From: Sphingopyxis sp. H053
GTDB lineage: Bacteria > Pseudomonadota > Alphaproteobacteria > Sphingomonadales > Sphingomonadaceae
DNA length: 64,000 bases
Assembly: GCF_001468225.1 (NCBI RefSeq)
Contig: NZ_LNRU01000001.1
Coordinates: 620,001 to 684,000 of the forward strand
Direction: 5' to 3'
Within the stretch, counting starts at the first letter, position 1. The number at the start of each line of letters is the position of its first letter. Both the position numbers and the translations under genes were made by a program. The notes under the pieces are model-generated. The model saw only the letters and a program-made list of their open reading frames with translations. It did not search any database and was not told the origin of the DNA. Shown here piece after piece: positions 31,460 through 50,190 of this stretch.

Positions 31460-31462
31460 CTT

Positions 31463-34025: not shown

Positions 34026-34069
34026 ACTCTTTCTCTCCTCATTTTTTCTCTCCTCATTTTGAACAACGG

Positions 34070-34261: not shown

Positions 34262-35806
34262 CTAGGTAGCGCTTGCCAGCTCAAGGGCTGCGGCCTGTTG
34301 CGCGGCTTCAAAAACCAGCGGCTCTTTCGAGAAATCCAGCGCTTCGAAATCCGCGCGATCGGCCCAATAATCCTGCGAATGGCGCCAGGGATCATGGTCA
34401 CCGCTTCGCGGCAGGATATCAGCTGCGCGGATGGTATATCCCGGCGCAAATTCCTCTGTCGCCATATAGGGCAGAAGGTTCATGCCCTTGTCTTCTTCCC
34501 TCAATTTCGGGACAACGGTCGCATAGTGGCGATCATGCATCAGGTTCAGCAATTTGCCCATCAGATCAGCCACCAGTTCGGCCCGCAAAGTATAGGCGGC
34601 GGAACGGAAGTATCCCGCCACCCATACAAAATTGGGTGTTTCGGTAAACATCAGGCCGCGATAGGTAACAGTATCGGACATCGGCAACGGCTCCCCGTCC
34701 TTGACGATTTCCATATCGCCAAAGACATTGAGGTTGAACCCGGTAGCCGTAACGATCAAATCGGCTTCGATCTCTTCACCCGATTTTAGGCGCACCCCAT
34801 TTTCGGTGAATTGTTCGATCTCGCCGGTCGTGATGCTTGCCTTTCCGCTGGTGAAAGCGCCGAAATAATCATTGTCGGGGATCATGCAGACGCGCTGGCG
34901 CCACGGCTTATATTTTGGAATGAAATCGTCCGGGATTGTTCCACCCAGTGCCTCACGAACGCTGCCCAGCATTTCCTCGGTCGCCACGTCCGGATTGTCG
35001 AGGCTGTGGCGTACCCAGTCATTATGCTCTTTCAGTAATTGCTGGCGGACGATTTCATGAATCCATTCCCTCGGAATATCGAGCTGCCGTAACTGTGTCG
35101 CCAGTGGATATTCATTTGGCGAGGGAAAATAGTAAGAGGGCGAGCGTTGGATCTGCACGATTCGCTCGGCTTTTTCGGCCAATGCGGGAATGATCGTCGC
35201 GGCGGTCGCGCCAGAACCAATGACGATGACCCGCTTTCCGGAATAATCATAATTCTGGGGCCAGCGTTGCGGGTGCAATATGTCACCTTTGAAATGGTCG
35301 ATACCCGGCCATTGGGGAGAATGCCCCTCGCGATGGCGATAGTAGCCCTGACACATCCACAGGAAGTTTGCAGTATAAATGGCGGTCGTTTCGCCACCGA
35401 TTTCTACCGTTACAATCCAGTGTGCGTCAGCACTGGACCATTCGGCCCGTAGGACTTTGTGACCGTAGCGGATGCGATCCTGCAGATCATGTTCGCTGAT
35501 CGTCTCGCGCATATATTCGAGGATCGGCTCACCGCGGGCAATTGGCGCGCCTTCCCACGGTTTGAAACTATAGCCATAAGTGAACAGGTCGCTGTCCGAT
35601 CTTACGCCTGGGAATTTGTTGGATAGCCATGTTCCACCATGCGACTCCATCGCTTCGAGTACGGCAAAGCTGGCCCACGGGCATTCCTGCTGGAGACGAA
35701 CCGCCGAGCATAAGCCGGATATGCCCGCGCCGATTATGAGGACATCGAAGTTCGCCGCAACTGGTTGCGCCCCGGTAAATATGTTCGCATTGGCAGTCTC
35801 GTTCAT
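34262..35806 (-). CDS. Flavin-dependent monooxygenase, Baeyer-Villiger type
   Basis: A 514-residue FAD/NADPH enzyme. The N-terminal FAD loop is IIGAGISGLCSAVRLQQECP, followed by GGTWLSNKFPGVRSDSD. The second Rossmann loop is VIVIGSGATAATIIPALAEK. Between them FKGDILHPQRWP fits the Baeyer-Villiger fingerprint FxGxxxHxxxWP. Later, ATGFNLNVFGD is the third conserved block. It should convert a ketone to an ester or lactone, though related enzymes oxidise other groups. Its own AraC gene is divergent at 35983. Two SDR genes follow downstream on the same strand. Confidence 0.88.
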   Translation of the reverse strand: MNETANANIFTGAQPVAANFDVLIIGAGISGLCSAVRLQQECPWASFAVLEAMESHGGTWLSNKFPGVRSDSDLFTYGYSFKPWEGAPIARGEPILEYMRETISEHDLQDRIRYGHKVLRAEWSSADAHWIVTVEIGGETTAIYTANFLWMCQGYYRHREGHSPQWPGIDHFKGDILHPQRWPQNYDYSGKRVIVIGSGATAATIIPALAEKAERIVQIQRSPSYYFPSPNEYPLATQLRQLDIPREWIHEIVRQQLLKEHNDWVRHSLDNPDVATEEMLGSVREALGGTIPDDFIPKYKPWRQRVCMIPDNDYFGAFTSGKASITTGEIEQFTENGVRLKSGEEIEADLIVTATGFNLNVFGDMEIVKDGEPLPMSDTVTYRGLMFTETPNFVWVAGYFRSAAYTLRAELVADLMGKLLNLMHDRHYATVVPKLREEDKGMNLLPYMATEEFAPGYTIRAADILPRSGDHDPWRHSQDYWADRADFEALDFSKEPLVFEAAQQAAALELASAT

Positions 35807-35937
35807 TTGTCTCTCTCCTGTCGCCGTCAGAGGGTAGCATCTGACGATCCCGTGGTCGGGCTTCTCTTTTTTAAGATGCTGGCACGCGAGGGTTTGCCCA
35901 GTTGGTCAGCAAACAAAGCGTAACGGTGTGAAGCTGA

Positions 35938-35964
35938 TTTTGGCCAGTTGCTGACCGGCCAAAA
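35938..35964. promoter_or_regulatory. Inverted repeat between monooxygenase and AraC genes
   Basis: TTTTGGCC (35938-35945) and GGCCAAAA (35957-35964) flank AGTTGCTGACC. A related CAGTTGGTCAGCAA sequence lies about 40 bases upstream (35899-35912). The repeat is 19 bases before the AraC start, consistent with an operator in the divergent region. Confidence 0.45.
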
Positions 35965-35982
35965 AAGTGGCATTTTGAGCCA

Positions 35983-36993
35983 ATGCAAGATTCATTGTTC
36001 CAACTCCCGATGACAATGGGCTATTTACGGCTTCTTCACCGGGTTTATGGCACGGGGGATCACGATATTCTGGCAGGTGCGGACCTGGTACCTGAGGATC
36101 TGGCCGATCCGGTCCGCGAAATCAGCTTGTTTCAGCAAGCGCGCGTGATCGACAATCTAACGGCCATGTATGGCCCCGGCATCGTGTTCTCAAAGCCAGA
36201 AATCTGGAATGTTTCTATCCACGGCGCGGTTGCGATAGCCGTGATATCGGCGGCAACCGTTGGCGAAGGCATAAAATTGCTTCCGCGTTACGGCCCAGCA
36301 CGTACGCCGTTTCAGCGCGGCGTCATCCGGGAGGGGCGAGACCATTATACGCTGGACTGGGAGGTGACGGTCCCCCTTACACAGACGCAATGGCTGCCGA
36401 TGATGGAAGTCAATTTTCTGGCCATTCGTTCGATGATGCAATCGGCTCTAGGAGGCGATATCGACGGGCTAGAGTTTTCGTTTTCGGTCCCTATTCCGAC
36501 TTATGCCGAACGCGCCCGTGCCGCGCTCGGGCCCGGCGTGGAATATGAAGCGGGGGTTAATCGCGTCCGATTTCCCCGTTCTTGGTGGAGCATGCGGCCC
36601 GTCACAGCCGATCCGATATTGCACCGCGGCGCAATCAACGAACTGGAGCTGACGCTACGCAGGCGGCGGGAAAATTCTGCGCTTCTAAAAGGCAGGGTCG
36701 AGCATCTCTTGCAATCAATGCCCGACGGGCGCTTGGGCGCAGATGCGGTTGCACGCAGCCTAGGAATTTCGCGCCGTACGATGGCGCGGCGGCTTTCAGA
36801 GGCCGGGACAAATTTCCGCAGCCTGCTTGACGATGAGTTGAAAGAACGCGCCGTTCATTTTCGTTCGGCACGGTTGAGGCGGGACGAAATTGCAGTTCGG
36901 CTTGGCTACGAAGACGCCGCCAGCTTCAATCGCGCCTGGCGCCGATGGTTCCCCAAGGACCGCGAAACGCAGCGACCGGCGATAAGGGTTTAA
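35983..36993 (+). CDS. AraC-family regulator (arabinose-binding-like N-terminal domain)
   Basis: A 336-residue protein of the group with an Arabinose_bd domain (N-terminal half starting near MTMGYLRLLHRVYGTGDHDI and the block RYGPARTPFQ) and a C-terminal AraC domain: GADAVARSLGISRRTMARRL and ELKERAVHFRSARLRRDEIA plus RLGYEDAASFNRAWRRWFPK. Such regulators activate degradation genes in response to ketones or their precursors. The gene is divergent from the monooxygenase, its likely target. Confidence 0.9.
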   Translation: MQDSLFQLPMTMGYLRLLHRVYGTGDHDILAGADLVPEDLADPVREISLFQQARVIDNLTAMYGPGIVFSKPEIWNVSIHGAVAIAVISAATVGEGIKLLPRYGPARTPFQRGVIREGRDHYTLDWEVTVPLTQTQWLPMMEVNFLAIRSMMQSALGGDIDGLEFSFSVPIPTYAERARAALGPGVEYEAGVNRVRFPRSWWSMRPVTADPILHRGAINELELTLRRRRENSALLKGRVEHLLQSMPDGRLGADAVARSLGISRRTMARRLSEAGTNFRSLLDDELKERAVHFRSARLRRDEIAVRLGYEDAASFNRAWRRWFPKDRETQRPAIRV

Positions 36994-37011
36994 CGCCGCG
37001 GAAACGTAGGC

Positions 37012-37176
37012 TCAGCAGGTATGAGTGTCATTCTTTCCGGCGTCTTTCAATTCAGGGACTCCATTTTGCATGTAATGCCGGTAATGCCTTGGTGCCTGCC
37101 CCATCGTGTGATGAAAGGCAGTGCTGAACGCTGCCTCTGAAGAATATCCCGACGCATAGCCGATGCTGCTCACATT
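37012..37176 (-). pseudogene. AraC-family regulator, C-terminal fragment
   Basis: The minus strand encodes [20 protein letters not shown] followed by FHHTMGQAPRHYRH and a short tail to a stop at 37012. This is the second helix-turn-helix and end of an AraC regulator. The rest of the gene is missing: directly upstream, at about 37180, the sequence changes to IS256 remnant B. It is a leftover of a gene cut by that element or by recombination at it. Confidence 0.75.
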
Positions 37177-37179
37177 ATC

Positions 37180-37680
37180 CGAAGTCCGACAAGGGCGGTG
37201 ACCCGCTCGTCGATTTCCTCGCACAGGTGGCTCAGTTGGCTCTTGGCGATGCCATCCATGCCAAGCGCCTTGACTAGGTCATCGACCGAGCGCGTCGAGA
37301 TGCTCTGGATATAGGTCTCCTGGATCACCGCCGTCAGTGCCCGCTCGGCCATCCGGCGCGATTCCGGAAAGCGCGGAAAGTAGCTGGCTTTGCGCAAGCG
37401 GGGATGCGCAGATCGACAGTCCCGGCGCGGTTCTGCTAGCCCCGCTCACGGCCGGTCAGGCTGCCGACCTCCATCGCCATCAACCGCTCGGCGGCAAACG
37501 AAATCATGTCGCGCAGAATGTCAGCGTCAGGCGCCTTCTCGGCCAGCGAGCGCAGGTGCATCATCGAATCGGTCATCGTGGTTCCTTCCGTCAGGCTCCA
37601 GCGTTGCATCCCAAACCTATCCGGAAATCACGGTGACCACCTCAATCCCCAGCTGCATCACCTCGTGGGACAGATCCCCT
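37180..37680 (-). mobile_element. IS256-family remnant B (5' end and N-terminal part)
   Basis: The terminal repeat is at 37647-37680 (inverse partner of 31463-31496). A transposase start at 37576 reads MTDSMMHLRSLAEKAPDADI then [21 protein letters not shown] small deletion breaks the frame near 37435, and the N-terminal domain continues at 37397-37190 ([40 protein letters not shown]). The catalytic domain is absent. About 150 bases (37190-37340) are shared with remnant A (32140-32300) in the same orientation. Confidence 0.85.
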
Positions 37681-37850
37681 TGAGCGAATTTGGGCGGTAG
37701 CAATAAACGACAACGGAACGCGCAGGGAAATTCAAGACGTCCCCATAAGCACAACCTACGTCTCCTCCTGATCACGCCTCACATCTGTCTGCCTCACGCG
37801 ACGGGCAGCGGTGGAGTACGGCGTTCGCAAGAATCTGGATGGAGAGGAAA

Positions 37851-38753
37851 ATGGCGGAAAATCGGGAGGCAGATTTCCTGCGCGAGCTGTACGAGGATTG
37901 GAGCAACCGAATGGTCGCTGATCCTGAAATGTCCATCGCAGGGCTCCGCAGTATGTTCGACGAGTGGGGCAAGCCGGCACGCGAGCCGGAAGGGGTAAGC
38001 TACAAGTCAGATGAAATTGGCGGTGTTCCAGGCATCTGGGCATTCCCGCGAGATGCAGATCTCTCTCGAGTCATACTCTACACCCACGGCGGAGGTTTCG
38101 CGGTCGGTTCAGCGGATAGCCATCGCAAGCTTGTGGGGCATCTTGCGAAAGCTCTGGGCGTATCAGCTTTCATCCTGGACTATCGACGATCGCCTGAATT
38201 TCCATTTCCGTCCCAGATCGAGGATGCGGTTGCGTCATATTTGGGCTTGATCGAAAGAGGCATAGAGCCCCGGCACATAACAAGTGCGGGTGACAGCGCC
38301 GGCGGCAATCTTGCCATTGCCATGGTTCTTCAACTTCGAGAACTTGGCGAGCAGCTTCCTGGAAGCCTCATCGCGTTTTCGCCCTGGCTGGACATGGCGT
38401 TGCGTGGCGCCACGCTGGAGACAAACGCCGCAACGGATGCTCTCGTTGGCAGGCCGATACTGGAAGGTATGATCGCCATGTTTCTTGGCGACGCGACCAG
38501 TCCGCTAAATCCGCTGGCGAACCCGCTCGAGAACAGCTTTCAGCAATTCCCTCCACTGTACGTCAATGCGGGCGGCGCCGAGACATTGCTAAGCGACGCC
38601 GAAGCCTTGTGCGAAAAGGCGCGGAGCGAAGGCGTTTCAGTCGCCTTCTCGGTCGTCCCTGGCATGCAGCATGTCTTTCCAGCCCTCGCAGGTCGAGCCG
38701 CTGAAGCTGACGAGGAACTGCTCAAGATCGCCGCTTGGTATCACTCACTTTGA
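37851..38753 (+). CDS. Alpha/beta hydrolase, hormone-sensitive-lipase family (possible lactone hydrolase)
   Basis: A 300-residue HSL-type esterase. The oxyanion-hole motif is YTHGGGFAVGSADSH, the nucleophile is in SAGDSAGGNLAIAM (Gly-Asp-Ser-Ala-Gly), and the catalytic His lies in PGMQHVFPALAG. Family members include monoterpene epsilon-lactone hydrolases, which would suit its position directly before a Baeyer-Villiger monooxygenase: it could open the lactone made by that enzyme. The ATG at 37851 is chosen over 37839 because GGAGAGG precedes it. First gene of a plus-strand catabolic series. Confidence 0.9.
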   Translation: MAENREADFLRELYEDWSNRMVADPEMSIAGLRSMFDEWGKPAREPEGVSYKSDEIGGVPGIWAFPRDADLSRVILYTHGGGFAVGSADSHRKLVGHLAKALGVSAFILDYRRSPEFPFPSQIEDAVASYLGLIERGIEPRHITSAGDSAGGNLAIAMVLQLRELGEQLPGSLIAFSPWLDMALRGATLETNAATDALVGRPILEGMIAMFLGDATSPLNPLANPLENSFQQFPPLYVNAGGAETLLSDAEALCEKARSEGVSVAFSVVPGMQHVFPALAGRAAEADEELLKIAAWYHSL

Positions 38754-38814
38754 CACGCGCGAAAATCCATTTCGCAGCAACGGTTTGTGCGGGAACCCCG
38801 CTCTGGAGAAAATA

Positions 38815-40452
38815 ATGATCAGCAATGTAACCGCGACAAAAACCCATGGTGCCGATTTCGACGCGATTGTCATCGGCGGAGGCTTTGGAGGACTCTATGC
38901 GGTCCATAAGCTTCGCAATGAGCAGGGTCTTCACGTGAAGGCCTATGACAATGCGAGCGACGTCGGGGGAACCTGGCACTGGAATCGTTACCCCGGAGCC
39001 CTTTCCGATACGGAGAGCTTTTGTTACCGCTTTTCGTTTGACAAGGAACTTCTTGATCAAGGCAGCTGGCAGTCTCGATACCTTACGCAGCCCGAGATTC
39101 TCGAATATCTGAACGGCGTCGCTGACCGCTTTGATCTGCGCAGCAGCTATCAATTCAATACGAAAATCGTGTCAACCCGCTTCGACGAGGCCACCGGCTT
39201 GTGGCACGTTTTGACAGATAAGGGGGAGTCGGCATCGGCGAAGTATCTGATCACCGGCCTGGGGCTGCTTTCGGCAATAAACAAGCCACGATTCGCCGGC
39301 ATCGATGAATATCGCGGCGAAGTTTACCATACTGGCGCTTGGCCAGAAGGCGCCGATCTGAGCGGAAAGCGTGTCGGCATTATAGGAACCGGCTCTACAG
39401 GCGTTCAGGTCATCATCGCGCTTGCGCCCATTGTGCAGCATCTGGCCGTGTTTCAACGATCGGCCCAATATGTGGTTCCTATTGGAAACTGGCCCGAAGA
39501 CACCGAGACGATCGACAATTATAAGGCCAACTATGACGAAATCTGGAAACAGATTAAGCGTTCACAGGTTGCCTTTGGCTTCGCCGAGAGCACAACGTCA
39601 GGACTAGATGTCTCCGAAGCCGAACGAGACCGGGTATTCGAAGAAGCCTGGCAGCGAGGTGGCGGCTTCCGCTTCATGTTCGAGACATTCACCGATGTCG
39701 CAACCAGTCATGACGTAAACACGTCCGCTGCCAACTTCATCAAGCGGAAAATTGCCAGAATTGTGAAGGATCCGGACATTGCCCGGAAACTGATGCCTAG
39801 CGATCTTTATGCCAAACGCCCCCTGTGCGCAACGGACTACTACGGAGTCTACAATCGGAAGAACGTGTCGCTGGTAGACGTCAAGGAAGATCCGATCACC
39901 GAGTTCACGGCAAATGGCGTTCGCCTAGCCAGTGGTATCGAGCACGAACTGGACGTCGTGATTTTCGCCACGGGATTCGATGCGGTCGACGGGAACTATA
40001 CGAAGATCGATATTCACGGGCGCGGCGGTGTAACCATTCGCGAAAAATGGGCCGATGGTCCCTTGGGGTATCTCGGAATGATGGAAGCCGACTTCCCGAA
40101 CATGTTCATGATCCTCGGCCCGAATGGCCCATTCACAAACCTTCCGCCGAGTCTCGAAAGCCAGGTTGACTGGATTGCCGACGCCATTGCCACCATGGAA
40201 GCCGACGGCCGCTCCACGATCGAGCCGACACAGGCCGCCGAAGACGAGTGGGTAGAGACGTGCCGGACAATTGCAAATATGACACTCTTCCCGAAAGCTG
40301 AATCGTGGATTTTCGGAGCCAATATTCCGGGCAAGAAAAACGCCGTAATGTTCTATCTCGGCGGCCTTGGAAATTACCGCGATGCACTTCAGGCGGTGCG
40401 CGAGTCAGGATATGACTCAATGATTTTCGATCGCGAAGCAATTTTGACGTGA
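38815..40452 (+). CDS. Baeyer-Villiger monooxygenase (cyclohexanone/phenylacetone type)
   Basis: A 545-residue flavoprotein. FAD loop AIVIGGGFGGLYAVHKLRNE, then DVGGTWHWNRYPGALSDTES, the fingerprint YRGEVYHTGAWP (FxGxxxHTxxW with Tyr in place of Phe), NADPH loop VGIIGTGSTGVQVI and DVVIFATGFDAVDG. Length and motifs match type I Baeyer-Villiger enzymes such as cyclohexanone monooxygenase. It inserts an oxygen next to the carbonyl of a ketone. The frame opens at 38671 inside the hydrolase gene, but the ATG at 38815 with GGAG is the right start. The stop overlaps the next gene's GTG. Confidence 0.93.
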   Translation: MISNVTATKTHGADFDAIVIGGGFGGLYAVHKLRNEQGLHVKAYDNASDVGGTWHWNRYPGALSDTESFCYRFSFDKELLDQGSWQSRYLTQPEILEYLNGVADRFDLRSSYQFNTKIVSTRFDEATGLWHVLTDKGESASAKYLITGLGLLSAINKPRFAGIDEYRGEVYHTGAWPEGADLSGKRVGIIGTGSTGVQVIIALAPIVQHLAVFQRSAQYVVPIGNWPEDTETIDNYKANYDEIWKQIKRSQVAFGFAESTTSGLDVSEAERDRVFEEAWQRGGGFRFMFETFTDVATSHDVNTSAANFIKRKIARIVKDPDIARKLMPSDLYAKRPLCATDYYGVYNRKNVSLVDVKEDPITEFTANGVRLASGIEHELDVVIFATGFDAVDGNYTKIDIHGRGGVTIREKWADGPLGYLGMMEADFPNMFMILGPNGPFTNLPPSLESQVDWIADAIATMEADGRSTIEPTQAAEDEWVETCRTIANMTLFPKAESWIFGANIPGKKNAVMFYLGGLGNYRDALQAVRESGYDSMIFDREAILT

Positions 40453-41684
40453 GTTCTGCGACGCGACCGCTCGATGGATCGCTCGCCGCGCCAGCTCGCG
40501 GCGCGGCAGAAACGAGATTTGGGAGTCGCGAGACGCCGCTTGTTTTTCGTTCAGTGCCGACCCTCCATGTCGAATGGGGCGTCCATCGCCGCTTGGGACA
40601 ATTCTTCGCTGAGTGTTTTGCCGAGCGCCGCATCCTGATCGTTACGGACCATCATCTGCGCGCCGCTGGTATCCTGGATCCTGCTTTGGAATCGCTCGAA
40701 GGAGCCGGCTTCGCAATAACGGTTTTTGACGGCGTTGTTGCCGACCCACCCGAATCCGTGCTCGCCAACGCTGTCCAGCTGGCGCGTGAGGCGGGCACGG
40801 ATATCGTTCTTGGCCTGGGTGGCGGTTCATCGATGGATATTGCCAAGCTGGTTGCGGTCCTTGCTGTCTCAGAGCAAAATTTGTCCGAACTCTACGGCAT
40901 AGATCGCGTAAGGGGCAAACGAGTGCCTCTGGTGCAAATGCCGACTACCGCCGGCACAGGGTCCGAGGCAACGAACATATCAATCCTGACCACGGGGGAA
41001 TCTTCGAAATCGGGAATTATAGCGCAGCAGCTATACGCCGATCGGGTCATACTTGATGCGGAACTTGCCTGCGGTATGCCGCCGCTCCTCACTGCGGCAA
41101 CAGGCATCGACGCGATCGTGCATGCCATCGAGGCATATACGAGCCAGAACCGCAAGAACCCCATGTCCGATATGTTTGCTCGCGAAGCCCTCCGGCTCAT
41201 GACGGGCAACTTGATCACCGCTTGTCGCGTTGGTCATGACAGGAACGCGCGAGAAGCCATGATGCTTGGTGCAAATCTTGCGGGGCAGGCGTTTGCGAAC
41301 GCGCCGGTCGCGGCGGTCCACGCGCTTGCTTATCCGCTCGGAGGACATTTTCACATCGCACATGGGCTGTCCAACGCACTCATGCTGATGCCGGTACTTC
41401 GATTCAATATGGTAACAGCGTCGCCGCTGTACGCCGAACTTGGCGACGCGGTCCTGGGCCCCACGGTAGCACCGACTGTCGAGAGAGCTGAGGCGTTTGT
41501 GTCCTTCATTGGCCAGCTGCTGGTCGATTCCGGTTGCCCATTGAGGCTTCGGGACGTGGAAGTTCCTGAAGAGAGCCTGCCTTCGCTCGCCAGAGATGCG
41601 ATGCTGCAGACCCGGCTTCTCGTCAACAATCCGAGAGCCATGACGGAACAAGACGCCCTGTCGCTATATCGAGAAGCCTACTGA
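40449..41684 (+). CDS. Iron-containing alcohol dehydrogenase (second copy)
   Basis: A 411-residue paralogue of the protein at 26667-27848. Same cofactor blocks (GLGGGSSMDIAKLVAV, TTAGTGSEATNISILT) and metal ligands (TGIDAIVHAIEA; VHALAYPLGGHFHIAHGLSN). It has a 30-residue N-terminal extension starting at a GTG that overlaps the monooxygenase stop (GTGA); a later start is possible. After lactone opening, the omega- or secondary alcohol would be its natural substrate. A maleylacetate reductase function is possible from sequence alone. Confidence 0.9.
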   Translation: MSSATRPLDGSLAAPARGAAETRFGSRETPLVFRSVPTLHVEWGVHRRLGQFFAECFAERRILIVTDHHLRAAGILDPALESLEGAGFAITVFDGVVADPPESVLANAVQLAREAGTDIVLGLGGGSSMDIAKLVAVLAVSEQNLSELYGIDRVRGKRVPLVQMPTTAGTGSEATNISILTTGESSKSGIIAQQLYADRVILDAELACGMPPLLTAATGIDAIVHAIEAYTSQNRKNPMSDMFAREALRLMTGNLITACRVGHDRNAREAMMLGANLAGQAFANAPVAAVHALAYPLGGHFHIAHGLSNALMLMPVLRFNMVTASPLYAELGDAVLGPTVAPTVERAEAFVSFIGQLLVDSGCPLRLRDVEVPEESLPSLARDAMLQTRLLVNNPRAMTEQDALSLYREAY

Positions 41685-41744
41685 GGCTACCGAGTTTTCT
41701 CCCGAATGGTATTCCCGTTGAAGCGTCTTGCCCAAGGAGGCAGA

Positions 41745-42185
41745 TTGGAAAAATCGGAGCTCTTGCCCCGCGATGTTTACCCGCAGTGGGTGAAGATTCA
41801 GACACAATGGGCGGACAATGACATCTATGGCCATGTAAACAACGCCGTGCACTACAGATGGTTTGACACTGCGATCAACAGCTGGCTGATCCGTAGTGGC
41901 CTGCTTCGCCTAAGTGGAGGCAAGCTGATCGGCCTGGTTGTCGAAACGGGATGCAGATACGCAGAAGCAGTCTGCTATCCGGAAGCCGTCGATCTCGGGT
42001 TTGGCGTAAGCCATTTGGGGCGAACAAGCGTGACGTATCGCGTTGGCATTTTCCGCGAGCTGAGCGTCCTTGCTGCCGCGGAAGGGCATTTCACCCATGT
42101 CATGGTAGATCGTAAGAGCCGCCGACCAGTCGTCTTGCCCGCGCGATGGCGAAAAGTCCTTGCGGCGCAGATGATCGAAACTTGA
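41745..42185 (+). CDS. Acyl-CoA thioesterase (hotdog fold)
   Basis: A 146-residue thioesterase, with QTQWADNDIYGHVNNAVHYR as the catalytic loop (Asp and GHVNN). AAGGAGG at 41734-41740 points to the in-frame TTG at 41745 as the true start, although the frame is open from an ATG at 41706 (159 residues). It lies 60 bases after the alcohol dehydrogenase. It may release free acid from a CoA intermediate or relieve CoA trapping. Related to, but not the same as, the thioesterase at 4384. Confidence 0.82.
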   Translation: MEKSELLPRDVYPQWVKIQTQWADNDIYGHVNNAVHYRWFDTAINSWLIRSGLLRLSGGKLIGLVVETGCRYAEAVCYPEAVDLGFGVSHLGRTSVTYRVGIFRELSVLAAAEGHFTHVMVDRKSRRPVVLPARWRKVLAAQMIET

Positions 42186-42506
42186 TATCGCATGATGCTC
42201 GATCGTCGCTGATCGTGAGCTGACCGAGCGCCTCGGCCGTGGCTCTGCAAAGCGCCACGCTTTCCTAAAATCATCAGTGCGGCCCGGCAGGAATTTATAG
42301 CTGCTCTTGCGGCCGGAATGGCCGCGAATTCCTAGGCAATCCCGGTTGCCACCTCGCAGGATTGTTCAACCCATGCGAGCAAGGATTTTCAAGACTGCCG
42401 CCCCTCGATGGGCTCTACGCCTTGACGACAAACTAAGTCGGCATTCGCCTTTCCGCAAGCAGCGGGAGACGCGTGAAGAGCCGAACTTTGCAATCGAGGG
42501 AGAGAG
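42186..42506. other. Gene-free region before the TonB receptor, with nested inverted repeats
   Basis: A 321-base gap. The only structure I see is a nested stem at 42289-42333: outer arms AGGAATT/AATTCCT and inner arms GCGGCC/GGCCGC around GGAAT. No T-run follows. The promoter for the receptor gene must lie here but no convincing pair of hexamers stands out. Confidence 0.5.
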
Positions 42507-45071
42507 ATGATGAACCTGAAGGCAATTTCGCAGCTTCTATGTGGTTGCGCTTGGGGCATTGCGCTGTTGCCCGGGCAAGTGAACGCCCAGGCGGTGGCGA
42601 GCAGCGCCGGCGACGTGATCGATCAAGCTTCAGAAGAAGGCCATGGCGACGAGATCATCGTTACCGCACGGCAGAAGAACGAATCCCTGAAGGATGTTCC
42701 TGCGTCGGTCTATGTGCTCTCGACCGACACAATCGAAAATACCAAAGCTCGCGTAGCAGTCGATTTCGTGAGCTTGACTTCGGGTGTCACCATTCAAACC
42801 GCCACAACCGATCCATCGGACGTGTCCATCAACATCAGAGGTCTGAACAGTCCGCGCGACGCGGAAAACAACATTGCGCTGGTGGTCGATGGCGTTCTCA
42901 AGACGAGCATTGCTTCAACTAATGAGCCTCAGGGTGCGCTGGCACAGGTCGAAATTCTCAAGGGGCCACAGGGCGCTATCTACGGTCGGAACGCGTCGGC
43001 CGGCGCTATCGTCATTACGACAAAGAAGCCGACGCCGGATCTGTCTGGTCAGATCAAGGGCCGTGTCGCCAACGACAACACATATCTCGTCTCCGGGCTG
43101 CTAAGTGGCCCTGTCACAGATGGTGTCGGATTCGTGCTGAACGGCGAATGGACCAAGTCGGACGGATATTATCGCAACACCTTCGTAGGGTCGGATCTGC
43201 ATCAGAGTGTGTACGGCTATCGCGGCAATCCGGCTTCAGTGGACAGCTATAACAAATTGAACATCTTTGGGCGCATCCTGCTTGAGCCCTCGGATGACAC
43301 CGAAATCGATCTCAAGGCCAATTACGGAAGAAGCCACGGCGGCGCACTGAGTTTCAACGCAGTCTTCCAGATCCCAACGCTCGCGCAAGCGTTCAATGAC
43401 CCGATTTTCAACGCGCCGGTGAGCAAGCACAAGTTCATATTCACGGACGACACCGAGGCTAAGCACTGGCAAAAAACATATGGGGCGTCGATGAGAATTC
43501 GGCAGGACCTGGATTTCGGCACATTGATCGGAGTCGTGGCCTACAACAACAACAGGAATGAATATATTGCTGGAGGAACGAGCGGGGCGTTCGGTTTTTT
43601 CAACAACGAGCCCACCTGCATCCGCACCAGGCCAGCCACGGCAGGAGTAGTCAACCAGGCGCCATTTACACAGTATAATGCTGCGTTCGGTTTCGCCATG
43701 CCCTACTCACCTTCCACCTGCGACGGTATCCAGGGCAATCGTCGTACGCAGAAAGATGTGGTTTCGGAAATCCGGCTCACTGGCGGCGAAGGCACCTCGT
43801 TGAACTGGCAACTGGGAGGTAGCTACATCTACATCGATCGACGGGTTTGCGTAAACCTTACTCTCGACACGGGCCAGGGCGGGACGCGTCAGTGCTTCAC
43901 GACGGACCCGCGATTCCCGACGGAGAATCTCACCGATGACAATTACCGGACCAATGTCTATGCCGTGTTTGCCGCAGCCGACTGGGACGCGACTGACAAA
44001 CTTCGGCTGGGCGTCGCACTGCGCTACGATATCGAAGCGCGCGACCGCATCAATAATGTTCCGGTAAATGCCCGCACGCGCTGGGTTGGCAATCCGCGTA
44101 CGGGATATCCGATTGGTACGGCGACCACGCCGTCGAACTATTTCCTCAATCCAGGGCTCGACCCGGCCTATAACCCGTCGGGCGTGATTGCCCCGATTTC
44201 GGAAACGTTCAAGCAACTTCAACCGAAGATCACGATCACCTACAAGCCCAACAATGACCTCACGATTTTCGGAAACTGGGGCATGGGATTCAAGGCCGGT
44301 GGCTTCAATCCGGCCGGCACCGAGGCAATCATCAATGGCTACTTCAATCCGCCGCCGCCGACAGGCATCAGTGCCGGAATCTCGGTTCCCGATCTCATCA
44401 AAAAGGAAACCAACAGCGCATTCGAACTTGGCGTTAAGGGGCGTGTTTTCGATGCGGTGAACTTCGAAGTGGCCGGTTTTCTCACCAACGTGAAAAACAT
44501 GCAATTCTTTGAATTCTTCGTCGGCGACTTCGGTTTGCTGCGGAGCACCTCCAATATCGACAAGGTGCAGATCTACGGTATCGACGCTTCAATCGACTAT
44601 AAGATATCGCCCGTCTTCAAGGTTTTCGTGAACGGAAACTACACCGAGAGCGAAATCAAAGCCAATAGCGGCCGTCCTTATACCGTCGGCAACAAATCTC
44701 CTGCGACGCCCGATTTCACGATCAACGGCGGCGTGCAGATGAATGCCCCGGTTTCCGACCGGGTCAATCTGGTTAGCCGAATCGATTTCAGAGTTGTCGG
44801 TCCAACCCCGTTCCATACCGTTCAACGGAATACGACACCGACCATCTTCGGGTTGCCGGCAACCTATGACAACTCGACGCGGGATACATTTGCGACCGTG
44901 AATGCAAGACTCGGTGTGGATGTTGGCAACTTCTCGATTTCTGCGTTCGCTACCAACCTGTTTAACAAGCACTATGTCGAGGACGTGGTGATCGCTCCGG
45001 AGTTCGGAGGCGACTTCATTGCAGGTGGCGCGCTCCGCCGGTTCGGCGTCGACGTCTCCTATAAGTTCTAG
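42507..45071 (+). CDS. TonB-dependent receptor of the catabolic cluster
   Basis: An 854-residue outer-membrane receptor. The signal peptide (AISQLLCGCAWGIALLPGQV, cleavage near NAQA) is followed by a TonB box (DEIIVTARQ), a plug (DVPASVYVLSTDTIE, VEILKGPQGAIYGRNASAGA) and a barrel with a C-terminal VDVSYKF. GAGGGAGAG precedes two tandem ATGs; 42507 is used. Located within the plus-strand degradation genes, it probably imports the growth substrate rather than iron. Sphingomonads use many such receptors for hydrophobic compounds; the specific ligand is unknown. Confidence 0.94.
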   Translation: MMNLKAISQLLCGCAWGIALLPGQVNAQAVASSAGDVIDQASEEGHGDEIIVTARQKNESLKDVPASVYVLSTDTIENTKARVAVDFVSLTSGVTIQTATTDPSDVSINIRGLNSPRDAENNIALVVDGVLKTSIASTNEPQGALAQVEILKGPQGAIYGRNASAGAIVITTKKPTPDLSGQIKGRVANDNTYLVSGLLSGPVTDGVGFVLNGEWTKSDGYYRNTFVGSDLHQSVYGYRGNPASVDSYNKLNIFGRILLEPSDDTEIDLKANYGRSHGGALSFNAVFQIPTLAQAFNDPIFNAPVSKHKFIFTDDTEAKHWQKTYGASMRIRQDLDFGTLIGVVAYNNNRNEYIAGGTSGAFGFFNNEPTCIRTRPATAGVVNQAPFTQYNAAFGFAMPYSPSTCDGIQGNRRTQKDVVSEIRLTGGEGTSLNWQLGGSYIYIDRRVCVNLTLDTGQGGTRQCFTTDPRFPTENLTDDNYRTNVYAVFAAADWDATDKLRLGVALRYDIEARDRINNVPVNARTRWVGNPRTGYPIGTATTPSNYFLNPGLDPAYNPSGVIAPISETFKQLQPKITITYKPNNDLTIFGNWGMGFKAGGFNPAGTEAIINGYFNPPPPTGISAGISVPDLIKKETNSAFELGVKGRVFDAVNFEVAGFLTNVKNMQFFEFFVGDFGLLRSTSNIDKVQIYGIDASIDYKISPVFKVFVNGNYTESEIKANSGRPYTVGNKSPATPDFTINGGVQMNAPVSDRVNLVSRIDFRVVGPTPFHTVQRNTTPTIFGLPATYDNSTRDTFATVNARLGVDVGNFSISAFATNLFNKHYVEDVVIAPEFGGDFIAGGALRRFGVDVSYKF

Positions 45072-45085
45072 CTCGTTGGCCCGGT

Positions 45086-45120
45086 CCGGGATTCCCAAGC
45101 ATCATTGCTGAGGATCCCGG
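45086..45120 (+). terminator. Nested stem-loop between TonB receptor and Old Yellow Enzyme genes
   Basis: CCGGGAT (45086-45092) pairs with ATCCCGG (45114-45120); inside, AGCA and TGCT form a second stem with a 4-base loop. It starts 15 bases after the receptor stop. There is no T-tract, so it may slow or protect the transcript rather than end it. Confidence 0.45.
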
Positions 45121-45225
45121 GTCGCTAAATGCTCGGGAAGACCTGCAGACAGCCAGCGTCTTGCCCCTCCGGCACCGGTACCAACCGCGATTGGTAAGGC
45201 AATATGTCGTTGAAGGAATGGATCG

Positions 45226-46371
45226 ATGGTGTCGCTATTTGAACCGTTGACGCTGCCGCGTGGCCCCGCGATGAAAAACCGTTTTCTTCTCGCCCCGATG
45301 ACCAATCAGCAGGCACGTGACGATGGCACTCTGACGGACGACGAGTTGAACTGGTTGCTCATGCGCGCAACGGGTGACTTCAGCCTGGTCATGACCTGTT
45401 GCTCGCATGTGCATCTGAAAGGGCAGGGCTTTCCCGGCGAACTTGGCGTCTACTCTGATGCCTTGATTCCCGGCTTGGAGCGGCTCGCAGGTGCCCTCCG
45501 CGGAGCGGGGGCCATATCAAGCATGCAGCTCTATCATGGCGGAATTCGCACGATTACTCCGGATCGCGCGGGACCATCCGCCGCCCCGGAAGATCATGCA
45601 CGCGCGATGACGGTCGCAGAAGTGCGCGCGACAATTGAGGATTTCATAGTCGCGGCCGAGCGCGCAAAACGCGCCGGCTTCGATGGCGTGGAACTTCACG
45701 GAGCCCATGGTTACCTGATCAGTGCGTTCCTGAGCAGCGTCTATAACAGGCGTGAGGATCATTACGGCGGCAGCCCTGAGAAACGACGTCGGTTCCTGCT
45801 TGAGATTGTCGATGGAATTCGCGCGAGCTGCGGCGAGGATTTCCAGATCGGCGTTCGAGTTTCGCCGGAGCGTTTCGGCCAGGATGTCGGTGAAACCTCC
45901 GAACTGGCCCAGCAGTTGATCGACGAAGGAAAAATCGACTATCTTGATATATCGCTTTGGGACGTGTTCAAAGATCCGGTCGATCCCAAATATCAAGGAC
46001 GCTCATTGATGTCCTATTTCACGGAGCTGGATCTGAAGGGTGTCAGGCTTGGTTTCGCGGGTAAGATAAATTCGCATGCCGACGCGACACGCTGCCTTGA
46101 GCAAGGGGCGGATTTCGTCGTCATTGGACGCGCGGCGATCGCTCATCATAACCTGCCCAAGCTGTTCAGGGCGAATCCACACTTCATCCCCCAGAAGTTC
46201 CCCGTAACTGCCGACTACCTGCGCACTCAAGGCCTCGGAGAAAGCTTCATCGCATATCTTGCAACTTGGCCAGATATGGTGATCAACTACTTTGTACCGC
46301 CCGAGATTCCGCGGTTCGACGTCGAAGAATTCTTCAAGACCGGAAGGAGCGTCAAGCTCGCGGCCGGCTAA
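45226..46371 (+). CDS. NADH:flavin oxidoreductase, Old Yellow Enzyme family
   Basis: A 381-residue FMN enzyme with a TIM-barrel. MKNRFLLAPMTNQQARDDGT binds FMN, MQLYHGGIR and HGAHGYLISAFLSS (the active-site His-Gly-Ala-His block) follow, then YDNREDHYGGS-like SVYNRREDHYGGSPEKRRRF. Near the C-terminus VVIGRAAIAHHNLP is the phosphate-binding loop. These enzymes reduce the C=C of enones. Within this cluster it could reduce an unsaturated cyclic ketone before Baeyer-Villiger oxidation. It lacks the Fe-S domain of the longer 2,4-dienoyl-CoA reductase type. Confidence 0.92.
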   Translation: MVSLFEPLTLPRGPAMKNRFLLAPMTNQQARDDGTLTDDELNWLLMRATGDFSLVMTCCSHVHLKGQGFPGELGVYSDALIPGLERLAGALRGAGAISSMQLYHGGIRTITPDRAGPSAAPEDHARAMTVAEVRATIEDFIVAAERAKRAGFDGVELHGAHGYLISAFLSSVYNRREDHYGGSPEKRRRFLLEIVDGIRASCGEDFQIGVRVSPERFGQDVGETSELAQQLIDEGKIDYLDISLWDVFKDPVDPKYQGRSLMSYFTELDLKGVRLGFAGKINSHADATRCLEQGADFVVIGRAAIAHHNLPKLFRANPHFIPQKFPVTADYLRTQGLGESFIAYLATWPDMVINYFVPPEIPRFDVEEFFKTGRSVKLAAG

Positions 46372-46437
46372 TCGGCGTCGTTGTAAACGCTGGCGCCGCC
46401 ACCATTGGCAGTTCAGATAGCCGGATGGAGACAAGAA

Positions 46438-47319
46438 TTGGAGCGGATAGGGTGGATCGGCGCCGGAAAGATGGGCTCACCGATGAGCTTTCGCCTGGCG
46501 AGACAAGGCTATGCGGTAACGGTGTTCGACCCATCGCCTGCCGAAATTGAGCCTCTGATCGCCGAAGGCGGGCGGAGGGCGTCGAGCTTGGCGGAATTGG
46601 CTGAAGCGAGCGACCTGATATTTCTCACCATTCCCAACGACCAGGCGCTCGAGCAGATCATCTTCGGCGAAAACGGGATTCTCCCCGCGTTGGATGAATC
46701 GAAGCTGCTCATCGAAATGAGCACATTGTCGCCCGCCGTGTCAGCGAAGGTGGCGTCCGCGCTCGCCGCCGCTGGCGCGCGCTATCTGCGCGCGCCCGTT
46801 TCCGGCAGCACCGTCATGGCAAAGGATGGGAAGCTCACTGTGCTCGCGTCGGGCAATAGGGACGACTACGCCGCCGTGCTGCCGCTTCTGTCTTGCCTTT
46901 CGGCGCGCCAGTTTCTTGTCGGAACAGCGGAGGAAGCCCGCTACCTGAAACTTGTCCTCAACCTGATGTTGGCAGGCACCGCAGCATTGGTCGGCGAAGC
47001 GCTGACTTTTGGCGAAAAGGGCGGTCTCTCTGTCGAGGCTATGCTCGATGTCATCTGCGAAAGCGTGGTGGCATCGCCGGTTCTCGACTACAAGCGCGAC
47101 ATGCTTATTCGGCGTGATTTTACTCCCGCGTTTACGGTGTCACAGATGATCAACGACGTTGATCTCGCGCTGGATTCGGCCAAGGTCGACCACGTCCCGA
47201 TGGCGCTCAGTGCGCTCGTCCGTCAGCAATATGAAGTGGCCCGCGCACAAGGGCATGGCGCGAGAGACTTTTTCATGCTGCTCGAACAATGCGAGCGTGA
47301 TGCTGGCTTGGCCAGGTAA
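46438..47319 (+). CDS. NAD(P)-dependent beta-hydroxyacid dehydrogenase-like protein
   Basis: A 293-residue protein of the 3-hydroxyisobutyrate dehydrogenase family. The dinucleotide loop IGWIGAGKMGSPMSFRLARQ, the substrate motif APVSGSTVMAKDGKLTVL and the catalytic Lys in ARYLKLVLNLMLAG are in order. The frame is open from a TTG at 46405; the in-frame TTG at 46438, 7 bases after GGAG, places the start right at the dinucleotide fold and gives normal length. It would oxidise a hydroxyacid to a semialdehyde or ketoacid, as the last gene of the catabolic series. Confidence 0.88.
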   Translation: MERIGWIGAGKMGSPMSFRLARQGYAVTVFDPSPAEIEPLIAEGGRRASSLAELAEASDLIFLTIPNDQALEQIIFGENGILPALDESKLLIEMSTLSPAVSAKVASALAAAGARYLRAPVSGSTVMAKDGKLTVLASGNRDDYAAVLPLLSCLSARQFLVGTAEEARYLKLVLNLMLAGTAALVGEALTFGEKGGLSVEAMLDVICESVVASPVLDYKRDMLIRRDFTPAFTVSQMINDVDLALDSAKVDHVPMALSALVRQQYEVARAQGHGARDFFMLLEQCERDAGLAR

Positions 47320-47972
47320 ACGACCACGAACTCCTCCGTCTGATCGACTTCCTCGTCGAAACTCGGTCGCCGATGCCGCGCCTGCTGCCATCCGGCCGGC
47401 GATCTCATGCCTGGCTTTCGGGACTATGCCGGCGAAGTTAAATCGCTGCTCGCCAGAGCCGTGGGGATAGGGGAAAGCGGCGAGGCGGAGGCCCATTTAC
47501 GCGACCTCCTGCCACGCCGCGCTGCGGCGCGATTTGCGCGAGGAACAGAGCCTTAGAACGCTAGGGACTCCCGATGACATGCTTGCGCTTGCATGCCGAC
47601 CCTACCGATCCGGAAGTGGTCAATATGGCATCGTCTGGGTTGAGGCACGGGGAATGCCGGTGGCCTCGAGCTTCCTTATTTTTCTTGGCACTTTTGCCGG
47701 CTCCCCCGATGCAGGGCGGAGCCAGGCCGGGCAATTGATGGCCAAACTCCAGTCGGCGTCGGCTGAATATGGCACGACCTGCATCTCGCCGCGAGACGGA
47801 CGTCGTGGATGGCTAGGCTAGGGCGTCACCGAGGCTAGCCGTTCACCCCGAAATTTTGACATCGGAAAGAGAGTGCTAGTTGGAATCGGCAGGAAAACCT
47901 ACAATGCTTACAGTCCAGTGGATTGATTTGATCTTGTATTGAGTCATTCGTTTGTGCGTCCGGAGTCATTCC
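47320..47972. other. Stretch of 650 bases without a supported gene
   Basis: Short frames exist (for example plus strand 47534-47821, 95 codons), but none has a ribosome binding site or recognisable content. The first 200 bases keep a coding-like composition in shifting frames (NDHELLRLIDFLVE, then FRDYAGEVKSLLARAVGIGE after a frame change), which suggests a decayed gene I cannot name. The last 100 bases are AT-richer and probably hold the promoter of the LuxR-type gene. Confidence 0.45.
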
Positions 47973-48443
47973 ATGACCATCGATCAACTCACGCCCCGTG
48001 AGAAGGAATGCCTGAGGCTTCTTCTAAAACCCATGCGTGCCAAGGAAGTGGCCCGGGTTACTGGCTTATCGGTCAACACTGTCAACGAGCATCTGAAATC
48101 CGCGCGGCGCAAGCTGGGGACGACCGACAGCTGGAGCGCAGCCCAGTTGCTTCGCGCCCTCGAGGACCCCACCACTAATTCGGATACCAAAGAATGGGGA
48201 TCGTCCCCCATGGCGGTTCCTGTCCAGAACAGCGCCACCGACACGTCGGCGTTTGAGCCGGTGATGGTGGAGCGATCGAGCCTGTTTCCTTTCGCAACGA
48301 AAGGAAGACCATGGAACGATCTGAGTTTTGGATGGCGTCTTGCATGGCCGCTTCTCCTTTTTGGCGTTATCGCCATCGGAGCGGGAGCAATCATGGCCGT
48401 GGCATCGGAACTCTCGCAGCTGACCATCGCCCTCACACGCTGA
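47973..48443 (+). CDS. LuxR-type helix-turn-helix protein with a C-terminal membrane helix
   Basis: A 156-residue protein. Residues 5-60 are a GerE/LuxR DNA-binding domain: LTPREKECLRLLLKPMRAKE, VARVTGLSVNTVNEHLKSAR. There is no receiver or autoinducer domain; instead a Ser/Thr-rich linker (about 70-115) leads to one membrane helix (WRLAWPLLLFGVIAIGAGAI, then MAVASEL). This would anchor a DNA-binding domain in the inner membrane. CGGAG lies 7 bases before the ATG at 47973. It heads a three-gene plus-strand group with two small unrecognised proteins. Confidence 0.82.
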   Translation: MTIDQLTPREKECLRLLLKPMRAKEVARVTGLSVNTVNEHLKSARRKLGTTDSWSAAQLLRALEDPTTNSDTKEWGSSPMAVPVQNSATDTSAFEPVMVERSSLFPFATKGRPWNDLSFGWRLAWPLLLFGVIAIGAGAIMAVASELSQLTIALTR

Positions 48444-48488
48444 CATCGGATTGACGCATGGCGACGGCCTGGGGCCGCGAGGAGTTAT

Positions 48489-48878
48489 ATGTCGATGTCA
48501 TTTATGGAAAAACGTCAGGTTCAAATGCAGCGCCACGAAGTCGCGGGAGAAATTGTGTCGCGACTGAAGACCTTCGAAATGGATCTTGGCCGCGCCCTTT
48601 CAAGCGGTTCCGCGCTTGTCGGCTTGCTGCCGGAGGCGCGGTCGCGAGCCAACGTCTCCGATATCGTTGGCGTGGAGGTGATCAGCGATTTTGTCGCGTC
48701 CATCTCGCTCGTCAATCAGGCTATGGGCAAGGCAACAAGCGGACACTTGAACCTCGACGAAATACGCCGCGATCTGCGGATTCCTGAAACGCTTGGCGGC
48801 GACAAGATTCCGCTCCCGTCGTGGAGCGCCGTGCAGTCGGCAGCAAGTCCTGAAGAGCCGGATGCGATTGCCGGTTGA
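48489..48878 (+). CDS. Unrecognised small protein following the LuxR-type gene
   Basis: A 129-residue protein, largely helical: MEKRQVQMQRHEVAGEIVSR, LKTFEMDLGRALSSGSALVG, then a central VSDIVGVEVISDFVASISLV. It ends with an acidic tail (EEPDAIAG). No signal peptide or membrane helix. GAGGAG lies 5-10 bases before the ATG. I know similar unnamed proteins after LuxR/TM genes in sphingomonads, but no function. It sits 45 bases after the LuxR-type gene and 33 bases before a membrane protein gene, so the three are probably one operon. Confidence 0.68.
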   Translation: MSMSFMEKRQVQMQRHEVAGEIVSRLKTFEMDLGRALSSGSALVGLLPEARSRANVSDIVGVEVISDFVASISLVNQAMGKATSGHLNLDEIRRDLRIPETLGGDKIPLPSWSAVQSAASPEEPDAIAG

Positions 48879-48911
48879 CCGGGAGCCCCGTAATGCTGAC
48901 CGTACGCCCTG

Positions 48912-49424
48912 ATGATCAGGATATTGATTTTCAACGCCCTTTACATTGTCTCCAGCCTCTTCGCGCTAATCCGCGGAGGAGCGCCGGAGAGGATAGGGGC
49001 CGTCATCCTGATCGTCGACTTTCAACTCAGTGCCTGGGTCGTGGAGCCGATGCAAAGCCGCTTCGCCGGTGTGGAATGGCCTATGTTCGCCATCGACTCC
49101 GCTGCCTTCGTTGCGCTCTATCTCTTGTCGCTGGTAACAACCCGGTACTGGCCCGCGTGGATGGCAGGAACGCAGGCCTGCGTGGCATTGTCGCACCTGG
49201 CGGGATTGCGCTTGGAGATCATTCCCTGGGCCTATGGTACCGTCGTCGCGGTTTGGGCCTATGCCATGCTGATCATGCTTGTGGTTGCGACCTGCCGCCA
49301 CCGGCAGCGCTTGCGCCGCTATGGCGCCGACCCCGCCTGGGTTTGGCAACTTTCCGCTTCCTATCGGTCCGGTGCGCCGCATGAGGGGCCGGTCGAGGTC
49401 GCGTTGGGCTGCGCCGCAAACTGA
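48912..49424 (+). CDS. Unrecognised membrane protein (four to five helices)
   Basis: A 170-residue protein with hydrophobic segments at LIFNALYIVSSLFALIRGG, GAVILIVDFQLSAWVV, PMFAIDSAAFVALYLLSLVT, MAGTQACVALSHLAGL and YGTVVAVWAYAMLIMLVVAT, followed by a basic RHRQRLRRYGADPAW tail. No catalytic motif is visible. It is the third gene of the LuxR-type group. The family is unknown to me. A role in membrane signalling with the anchored LuxR-type protein is speculation. Confidence 0.72.
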   Translation: MIRILIFNALYIVSSLFALIRGGAPERIGAVILIVDFQLSAWVVEPMQSRFAGVEWPMFAIDSAAFVALYLLSLVTTRYWPAWMAGTQACVALSHLAGLRLEIIPWAYGTVVAVWAYAMLIMLVVATCRHRQRLRRYGADPAWVWQLSASYRSGAPHEGPVEVALGCAAN

Positions 49425-49466
49425 AGAAACGCCGCGGCGACCACCGACCGTTCGCCGCGAACGCCG

Positions 49467-49982
49467 TTGCCTGGAATCTCCTGCCGGATCGGCGGCGCTA
49501 AGGCCCCTCTAATGTCAGCATTCGACAGGTCCCCCATTTTGCGATCGTCACCGACCGGCCCGTTGTCGTTGAACGCCGCGCACGAAGAGTTTGTAGTTTC
49601 CCATTTCGGCGCTCGGCAGCGACCGTCTAAAGGCGCAAAGACCGCGCGCCTTGCTGTGTGGCAAGTGCGCAAAGCCATGAAGCTGATGGCGGACCATATG
49701 GCTGACCCGATCGATCTCGGCGAGGTTGCAAGAAGTTGCCGCGTTTCTCGCGGCTATTTCATTGACGCATTCAATGCATCCACCGGACTGACACCGCATC
49801 AATGGCTCATCCGCTCACGCCTTCATCGCGCTCAGGAACTGCTCGGGTCGACGGATCTTCCGCTCGCCCAGATTGCACTTGCTTGCGGCTTTTGCGACCA
49901 GAGCCATTTCAACCGCACGTTCGCGCGCCGGACGGGAGAAACGCCGGGTCGTTGGCGACGGATTGCGAGGCGGGCGATATAG
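49467..49982 (+). CDS. Short AraC-family transcriptional regulator
   Basis: A 171-residue protein with only the AraC DNA-binding domain plus about 60 N-terminal residues. The first helix-turn-helix is PIDLGEVARSCRVSRGYFID, the second LAQIALACGFCDQSHFNRTF with TGETPGRWRR at the end. There is no sensory domain, so it may act as an accessory activator. It lies 42 bases after the membrane protein on the same strand and may belong to the same group. Immediately downstream the sequence changes to decayed toxin-antitoxin fragments. Confidence 0.85.
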   Translation: MPGISCRIGGAKAPLMSAFDRSPILRSSPTGPLSLNAAHEEFVVSHFGARQRPSKGAKTARLAVWQVRKAMKLMADHMADPIDLGEVARSCRVSRGYFIDAFNASTGLTPHQWLIRSRLHRAQELLGSTDLPLAQIALACGFCDQSHFNRTFARRTGETPGRWRRIARRAI

Positions 49983-49984
49983 GG

Positions 49985-50105: not shown

Positions 50106-50190
50106 GATGCAGGGCAGGCCGAAGGACCGATCAGGCCTTTAGTGCAATCAATAATTCAAGCCCGGAGCATGCTGACAGAATGGCGCCCGG

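Follow-up and report, generated by a model that had tools for sequence, protein, structure and literature searches.

A putative cyclohexanol/cyclohexanone-to-adipate gene cluster, rearranged and carried by a probable integrative conjugative element, in Sphingopyxis sp. H053

Textbook chemistry leads from cyclohexanone to adipate through a cyclohexanone monooxygenase (CHMO) and a caprolactone hydrolase, and the chn clusters combine these two enzymes, the hydrolase being of the hormone-sensitive lipase (HSL) type, with an omega-hydroxyacid dehydrogenase, an aldehyde dehydrogenase, and an AraC-type regulator. Candidates for the same set are found in a 64,000-nucleotide stretch (hereafter the window; G000:C1:620001-684000) of the 5.13 Mb genome of Sphingopyxis sp. 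H053, which very probably holds a cyclohexanol/cyclohexanone-to-adipate catabolic cluster that has been rearranged and sits on a probable integrative conjugative element (ICE). ChnD of Acinetobacter is a zinc-type enzyme, unlike the two iron-type alcohol dehydrogenases (Fe-ADHs) encoded here, FeADH1 and FeADH2. The cpn cluster likewise comprises a Baeyer-Villiger monooxygenase (BVMO), a lactone hydrolase, and an aldehyde dehydrogenase, together with an NtrC-type regulator unlike any regulator here. Clusters of the chn type for cyclohexanol/cyclohexanone oxidation are cited for Acinetobacter and Brevibacterium HCU in PMC9477822 and PMC5125639. The table of the latter gives two enzymes as Fe-ADHs: ChnD1, the 6-hydroxyhexanoate dehydrogenase of Brevibacterium HCU (cyclohexanone), and CpnD, the 5-hydroxyvalerate dehydrogenase of Comamonas NCIMB 9872 (cyclopentanol). 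Compared with chn clusters, the cluster type described here adds beta-oxidation genes, a TonB receptor (in sphingomonads), and a divergent layout with an IclR gene; the cpn cluster, which we liken to it by description, serves a five-membered ring substrate.

The BVMO of the window is, by its sequence, a CHMO. Among solved relatives it scores highest against 6er9, a crystallised CHMO (738 bits), and the Thermocrispum CHMO (732 bits), followed by the steroid (479), phenylacetone (478), and OTEMO (408) enzymes, the last being the only terpenoid-ketone BVMO in the comparison set. It shares 316 of 519 residues (61%) with 6er9 over nearly its full length, and 310 of 526 with the Thermocrispum enzyme. 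Of 40 catalytic and pocket-region positions, which we take to be those with such roles in solved CHMOs, 35 are as in 6er9, with deviations at 144, 246, 276, 491, and 507 (6er9 numbering).

To place this gene in context, we compared 80 of the 149 related loci found, plus three chosen plasmid loci (from 20 listed of 423), against 22 window proteins; some of these loci are near copies of one another, notably Sphingopyxis HIX and H050 (L009 and L010), and Novosphingobium percolationis (L011) and Sphingobium fluviale (L012) carry the same cluster and do not count as independent cases. The pairing of hydrolase and BVMO is more than chance. In the window the caprolactone hydrolase-type gene lies beside the CHMO gene across a 61-base gap, and a hydrolase at least 50% identical to it is found immediately 5' of the BVMO in all 12 loci that have upstream DNA and a BVMO of at least 60% identity (5/5 with a CHMO of at least 80%, 7/7 at 60-80%). 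The same test gives 3 of 14 loci at 50-60% and none of 53 below 50%, where a hydrolase match of any kind occurs in seven. A sixth locus in the closest class (L014) was left out of this count as it begins within the gene, and L021 was scored as a miss on its better CHMO copy, which has no hydrolase, although its second copy does. The TonB receptor follows downstream in five of the six closest loci (L009, L010, L011, L013, L014), that is, in all the sphingomonad loci reaching that far, since L012 ends earlier; the initial annotation had placed the receptor with the degradation genes, and the comparison bears this out.

That annotation described a plus-strand run (37839-47319; intergenic gaps in order 61, -4, 21, 321, 154, and 33 bases) whose seven named genes are all present as open frames, with Pfam families as it gave them. 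The run is only half of the pathway, the other, divergent half at 24530-31419 having been overlooked. The order of this left half is kept in HIX, H050, N. percolationis, S. fluviale, Novosphingobium UBA6272, and plasmids of Roseibium and Sulfitobacter; the N. percolationis, S. fluviale, and UBA6272 loci start within the CoA-transferase gene. FeADH1, the aldehyde dehydrogenase, and the AraC1 regulator, assigned at family level, are present in a conserved, syntenic setting. In N. percolationis c1, the CHMO, CoA-transferase, acyl-CoA dehydrogenase, aldehyde dehydrogenase, and TonB receptor are 88-90% identical to those of the window, and FeADH1, the hydrolase, and the IclR regulator 78-85%. This cluster differs in keeping an enoyl-CoA hydratase/3-hydroxyacyl-CoA dehydrogenase gene and a thiolase gene between those for the aldehyde dehydrogenase and the hydrolase, and in having electron transfer flavoprotein (ETF) genes after the receptor; FeADH2, the thioesterase, the Old Yellow Enzyme (OYE), the HIBADH-type dehydrogenase, and the inserted segment described below were not seen in it. 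The Roseibium and Sulfitobacter plasmids (NZ_CP045625.1, AP027376.1) show the order AraC, CoA-transferase, Fe-ADH, acyl-CoA dehydrogenase, IclR on one side and aldehyde dehydrogenase through to hydrolase and CHMO on the other, with proteins 65-79% identical to those of the window (AraC 49-50%). They differ in also keeping the hydratase/dehydrogenase and thiolase pair, with ETF genes and a short-chain dehydrogenase/reductase (SDR), while the TonB receptor, OYE, HIBADH, and a separate FeADH2 were not found in the plasmid stretches examined.

The retained pair points to the substrate. The N. percolationis hydratase/dehydrogenase has 691 residues, and its thiolase partner scores 657 bits against the pcaF (3-oxoadipyl-CoA thiolase) model, above the curated cut-off of 597. 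The pair is present in L011, L012 (identical to L011), L013, L089, and L091, and its two members are 84% and 86% identical to those of L011 in Novosphingobium UBA6272, 62% and 62% in Roseibium, and 54% and 57% in Sulfitobacter; it was not found in the window, in HIX and H050, or in the examined stretches of L014-L017, L043, and L090. Since a 3-oxoadipyl-CoA thiolase in syntenic clusters fits an unbranched six-carbon diacid, cyclohexanone is favoured over a carvone or menthone chain, and the route from cyclohexanone through adipate to 3-oxoadipyl-CoA is the likeliest. The initial annotation called the substrate unreadable, which was too pessimistic.

From families and synteny we infer all substrates and the order of steps as follows. 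The CHMO would convert cyclohexanone to epsilon-caprolactone, which the HSL-type hydrolase would open to 6-hydroxyhexanoate; FeADH1, perhaps also FeADH2, together with the aldehyde dehydrogenase would oxidise this to adipate, and the class III CoA-transferase and the acyl-CoA dehydrogenase would begin its beta-oxidation (positions in Table 1). In the related clusters, the in-cluster hydratase/dehydrogenase and 3-oxoadipyl-CoA thiolase would carry beta-oxidation on. Both are missing from the Sphingopyxis copies, so that paralogues elsewhere in the genome would have to take over the final steps.

Table 1. Positions of the features discussed (window coordinates, unless a contig position is given)
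Feature	Position	Strand	Basis
Tyrosine integrase	G000:C1:617081-618373		Arm-DNA-bind_3, Phage_integrase
AraC-family regulator AraC1, candidate pathway activator	24530-25408	-	HTH_18/HTH_AraC; 44-50% homologues near CHMO in L015-L018, L089, L091
Class III CoA-transferase, candidate adipate CoA-transferase	25468-26670	-	CoA_transf_3; 72-98% in syntenic clusters
FeADH1, candidate 6-hydroxyhexanoate dehydrogenase	26667-27848	-	Pfam Fe-ADH
Acyl-CoA dehydrogenase, candidate adipyl-CoA dehydrogenase	27835-28995	-	Pfam; 78-97% in syntenic clusters
IclR-family regulator	29011-29793 (start codon chosen; open frame to 30156)	-	IclR_C, HTH_IclR; conserved
Aldehyde dehydrogenase (SSADH-like), candidate 6-oxohexanoate dehydrogenase	29965-31419	+	Aldedh; 73-96% in syntenic clusters
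Inserted segment, 6.3 kb	31427-37698		Breakpoints vs HIX, H050; Mutator-family transposase fragments near both edges
SDR	32367-33170	-	In inserted segment
SDR	33288-34025	-	In inserted segment
BVMO-like FMO	34262-35806	-	In inserted segment; fingerprint FKGDILHPQRWP
AraC regulator	35983-36993	+	In inserted segment
HSL-type (family IV) hydrolase, candidate caprolactone hydrolase	37839-38753 (start 37851 in initial annotation)	+	Abhydrolase_3; HGGG and GDSAG motifs
CHMO, type I BVMO	38815-40452	+	Alignment to 6er9, Thermocrispum CHMO
FeADH2	40449-41684	+	Pfam Fe-ADH
4HBT thioesterase	41706-42185	+	4HBT_2
TonB-dependent receptor	42507-45071	+	Pfam; 90-99% in L009-L011, L013, L014
OYE	45226-46371	+	Oxidored_FMN
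HIBADH-type (6PGDH/HIBADH) hydroxyacid dehydrogenase	46405-47319 (start 46438 in initial annotation)	+	NAD_binding_2, NAD_binding_11
F-type conjugation genes TraG, TraH, TraF	56486-63960	-	Pfam

Fe-ADHs recur in such clusters. FeADH1 has homologues at 60-80% identity in 21 plasmid records, among them 19 of the 20 plasmid records listed for the CHMO; the one without it, from Actibacterium, has a gene annotated 'alcohol dehydrogenase' downstream instead. In AP027376 and AP022340 the match is split in two pieces, and the gene may be broken there. In Neobacillus citreus, genes for a hydrolase, a CHMO, an Fe-ADH, and an aldehyde dehydrogenase form a single run, so the iron type recurs in another phylum, with an enzyme 34% identical to FeADH1. 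FeADH2 and FeADH1 share 44.5% identity; both are assigned at the level of the Pfam Fe-ADH family, while the reference enzymes fall in the conserved-domain subfamilies cd08191 (ChnD1) and cd08193 (CpnD). The combination with an iron-type enzyme, initially thought undescribed, is therefore no novelty, and we rejected it as such, given the ChnD1 and CpnD entries in the table of PMC5125639.

Several observations weigh against the assignment to cyclohexanone. The type I BVMO fingerprint is FxGxxxHxxxW(P/D), and the CHMO carries YRGEVYHTGAWP at residue 166, with Y replacing the first F and the remainder matching. CHMOs take many ketones, which is why the natural substrate is deduced from the neighbouring genes. 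The CoA-transferase, the aldehyde dehydrogenase, and both Fe-ADHs fall under every equivalog cut-off shown; for example, the aldehyde dehydrogenase scores 458 bits against the SSADH model (cut-off 646). A clear cyclohexanol dehydrogenase is absent from the conserved part of the locus, the only SDRs being those of the inserted segment, at most 39% identical to the Roseibium SDR. FeADH1 of at least 45% identity is found in only two of the seven loci with a CHMO at 60-80%, and both pieces of it in Sulfitobacter pontiacus are annotated as hypothetical proteins. No thiolase exceeds the pcaF cut-off of 597 in any of the three Sphingopyxis genomes (best 367, 361, and 301 bits), nor in any of 14 control genomes. 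Finally, FeADH2, the thioesterase, OYE, and HIBADH have no assigned role in the proposed pathway.

The initial annotation envisaged an alicyclic or terpenoid ketone degraded by a carvone/menthone-type logic. Spelled out for these genes, OYE would reduce an enone, the BVMO and the HSL-type hydrolase would form and open a lactone, and FeADH2 and HIBADH would oxidise the hydroxyacid. All the enzyme types that this requires do follow one another closely on the plus strand, and the Sphingopyxis extras (OYE, HIBADH, thioesterase) could broaden the substrate range. The alicyclic part of that proposal stands, as do lactone formation, HSL-type opening, and alcohol oxidation. A terpenoid substrate was rejected, and a substituted or terpenoid cyclic ketone is very unlikely, with 738 bits to a CHMO against 408 to OTEMO and a syntenic thiolase that points to an unbranched C6 chain; enone reduction by OYE lacks comparative support, as OYE and HIBADH were not found in the examined DNA of other close clusters. 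If anything, we rate lower still a cyclopentanone/valerolactone pathway to glutaryl-CoA with a CpnD-type 5-hydroxyvalerate dehydrogenase. It would fit the Fe-ADH entry for CpnD in the table of PMC5125639 and the best NCBIfam match of the CoA-transferase, which is to a succinate--glutarate CoA-transferase, but that match (352.6 bits) is far under its cut-off of 750, and the thiolase of L011 is of the 3-oxoadipyl type. The BVMO also groups by score with CHMOs, in a comparison set that contains no cyclopentanone monooxygenase.

A different question is whether FeADH2, the thioesterase, OYE, and HIBADH are mere neighbours outside the cyclohexanone pathway, a reading compatible with the cyclohexanone assignment of the core and one that we consider quite possible, if slightly short of an even chance. 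At 45% identity or more, the four are found beside the cluster in two of the six closest loci, both from Sphingopyxis. None of the seven loci with a CHMO at 60-80% has the thioesterase, OYE, or HIBADH at this level, and the two that score for FeADH2 do so at places occupied by FeADH1 only. Among the loci with a BVMO of at least 60%, the 11 from outside Sphingopyxis, several of which end early, likewise showed no OYE in the DNA examined. The surroundings of relatives differ: two FeADH2 relatives (of 10 listed) adjoin SSADH-like aldehyde dehydrogenases, two OYE relatives (of 10 listed) adjoin other genes, and HIBADH stays below 60% identity in all 1110 plasmid records matched. The idea that OYE, FeADH2, and HIBADH travel together was rejected, no shared set being seen among the relatives examined. 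Against a neighbour-only role stands the gene arrangement, since the CHMO and FeADH2 frames share 4 bases at the CHMO stop codon and only 21 bases separate FeADH2 from the thioesterase gene, making co-transcription of the three likely.

The two halves of the cluster are separated in strain H053 by an insertion (31427-37698) that the initial annotation had missed. DNA alignment with HIX covers window positions 22743-31426 at 93.9% and 37699-50449 at 98.8% identity, as if the halves had different recombination histories. The intervening segment is not in HIX, which has 197 bases instead, and H050 is alike; alignments with N. percolationis break and resume at almost identical points (31425, 37691). 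The segment thus occupies the place of the thiolase pair in the relatives. Within the HIX spacer, a 52-base stretch matches the N. percolationis hydratase/dehydrogenase gene at its 5' end with 77% identity (E 4e-6, computed comparing only these two short pieces), and is most simply viewed as a deletion scar. On the strength of this resemblance, the gap in the Sphingopyxis copies would represent a deletion: Sphingopyxis probably lost the thiolase pair, after which strain H053 probably gained the 6.3 kb segment. Its left edge carries Transposase_mut pieces, two of three over the cut-off, and the piece near its right edge was recognised as a repeat of the left one (32153-32294 and 37197-37337). 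Within the broken transposase, positions 31998-32087 consist of 18-base tandem units that translate as a VAVIVAVAVIVSVAVI stretch. Of 148 genomes, 39, its own included, contain matches to the FMO of the insert at E <=1e-120; apart from itself, these are 41-53% identical. The SDR-SDR-FMO-AraC block (32367-36993) was rejected as a conserved part of the pathway, being absent from HIX and H050. We also considered a mobile cyclohexanone pathway that, with its dedicated back end deleted, accreted OYE (for cyclohexenones), FeADH2, HIBADH, the thioesterase, and a second BVMO with its regulator into a multi-ketone pathway whose beta-oxidation the host completes; this extension appears unlikely.

The cyclohexanone cluster probably resides on an ICE common to three Sphingopyxis genomes (G000:C1:616827-618373, window 56486-63960, L139). 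The CHMO, at E <=1e-150, occurs in three of 196 genomes searched and the integrase of the left edge in the same three, of 148 searched, the own genome included in both counts. On its left, the shared DNA starts at about G000:C1:616,820 with a 47-base copy of the tRNA-Lys(CTT) 3' end, without mismatches in all three genomes, each of which has the intact tRNA-Lys(CTT) gene on a different contig; the tyrosine integrase comes next. On the right, the F-type genes TraG, TraH, and TraF are succeeded beyond the window by TraN, TraC, and TrbI, up to the contig end at 697618. The element is no more than probable because the contig stops before a right end and the three genomes show no match to one another in their left flanks. 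In a search for the right end, HIX and H050 were collinear across the tRNA-Lys gene, which in G000 is on contig C6, and this contig differed from them at 604-13274. In an H050-like genome (G065:C9:38125-64441), a second copy of the tRNA-Lys 3' end, with one mismatch, lies 26 kb further out, which suggests elements stacked at one tRNA. Between the pathway and transfer genes, the window encodes HipA-like, PIN, and RES domain proteins (50616-51950, 53399-53851, and 54485-55204). Elsewhere, it encodes a CYP102-like fusion protein that joins a cytochrome P450 to flavodoxin, FAD, and NAD reductase domains (5631-8909), with a fatty acid desaturase nearby (10647-11510).

The underlying chemistry and the use of Fe-ADHs are already known, and the cluster opens no new chemistry. 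What varies is its organisation: beta-oxidation genes belong to the cluster type, a TonB receptor accompanies it, the IclR gene sits in a divergent layout, one junction appears to have been cut and refilled, and the surroundings are probably mobile. Among the open-licence literature matches listed, with their titles and abstract starts, none is about the sphingomonad or roseobacter cluster described here. Industry makes both cyclohexanone and cyclohexanol in bulk on the way to adipate, and the set of CHMO, hydrolase, and Fe-ADH may be usable for biocatalysis. The intact, cut, and refilled forms provide a natural series for studying the rearrangement of a catabolic operon. For the bacteria themselves, the findings point to a near-complete gene set leading from cyclohexanone to central metabolism that is common to sphingomonads and marine roseobacter plasmids.

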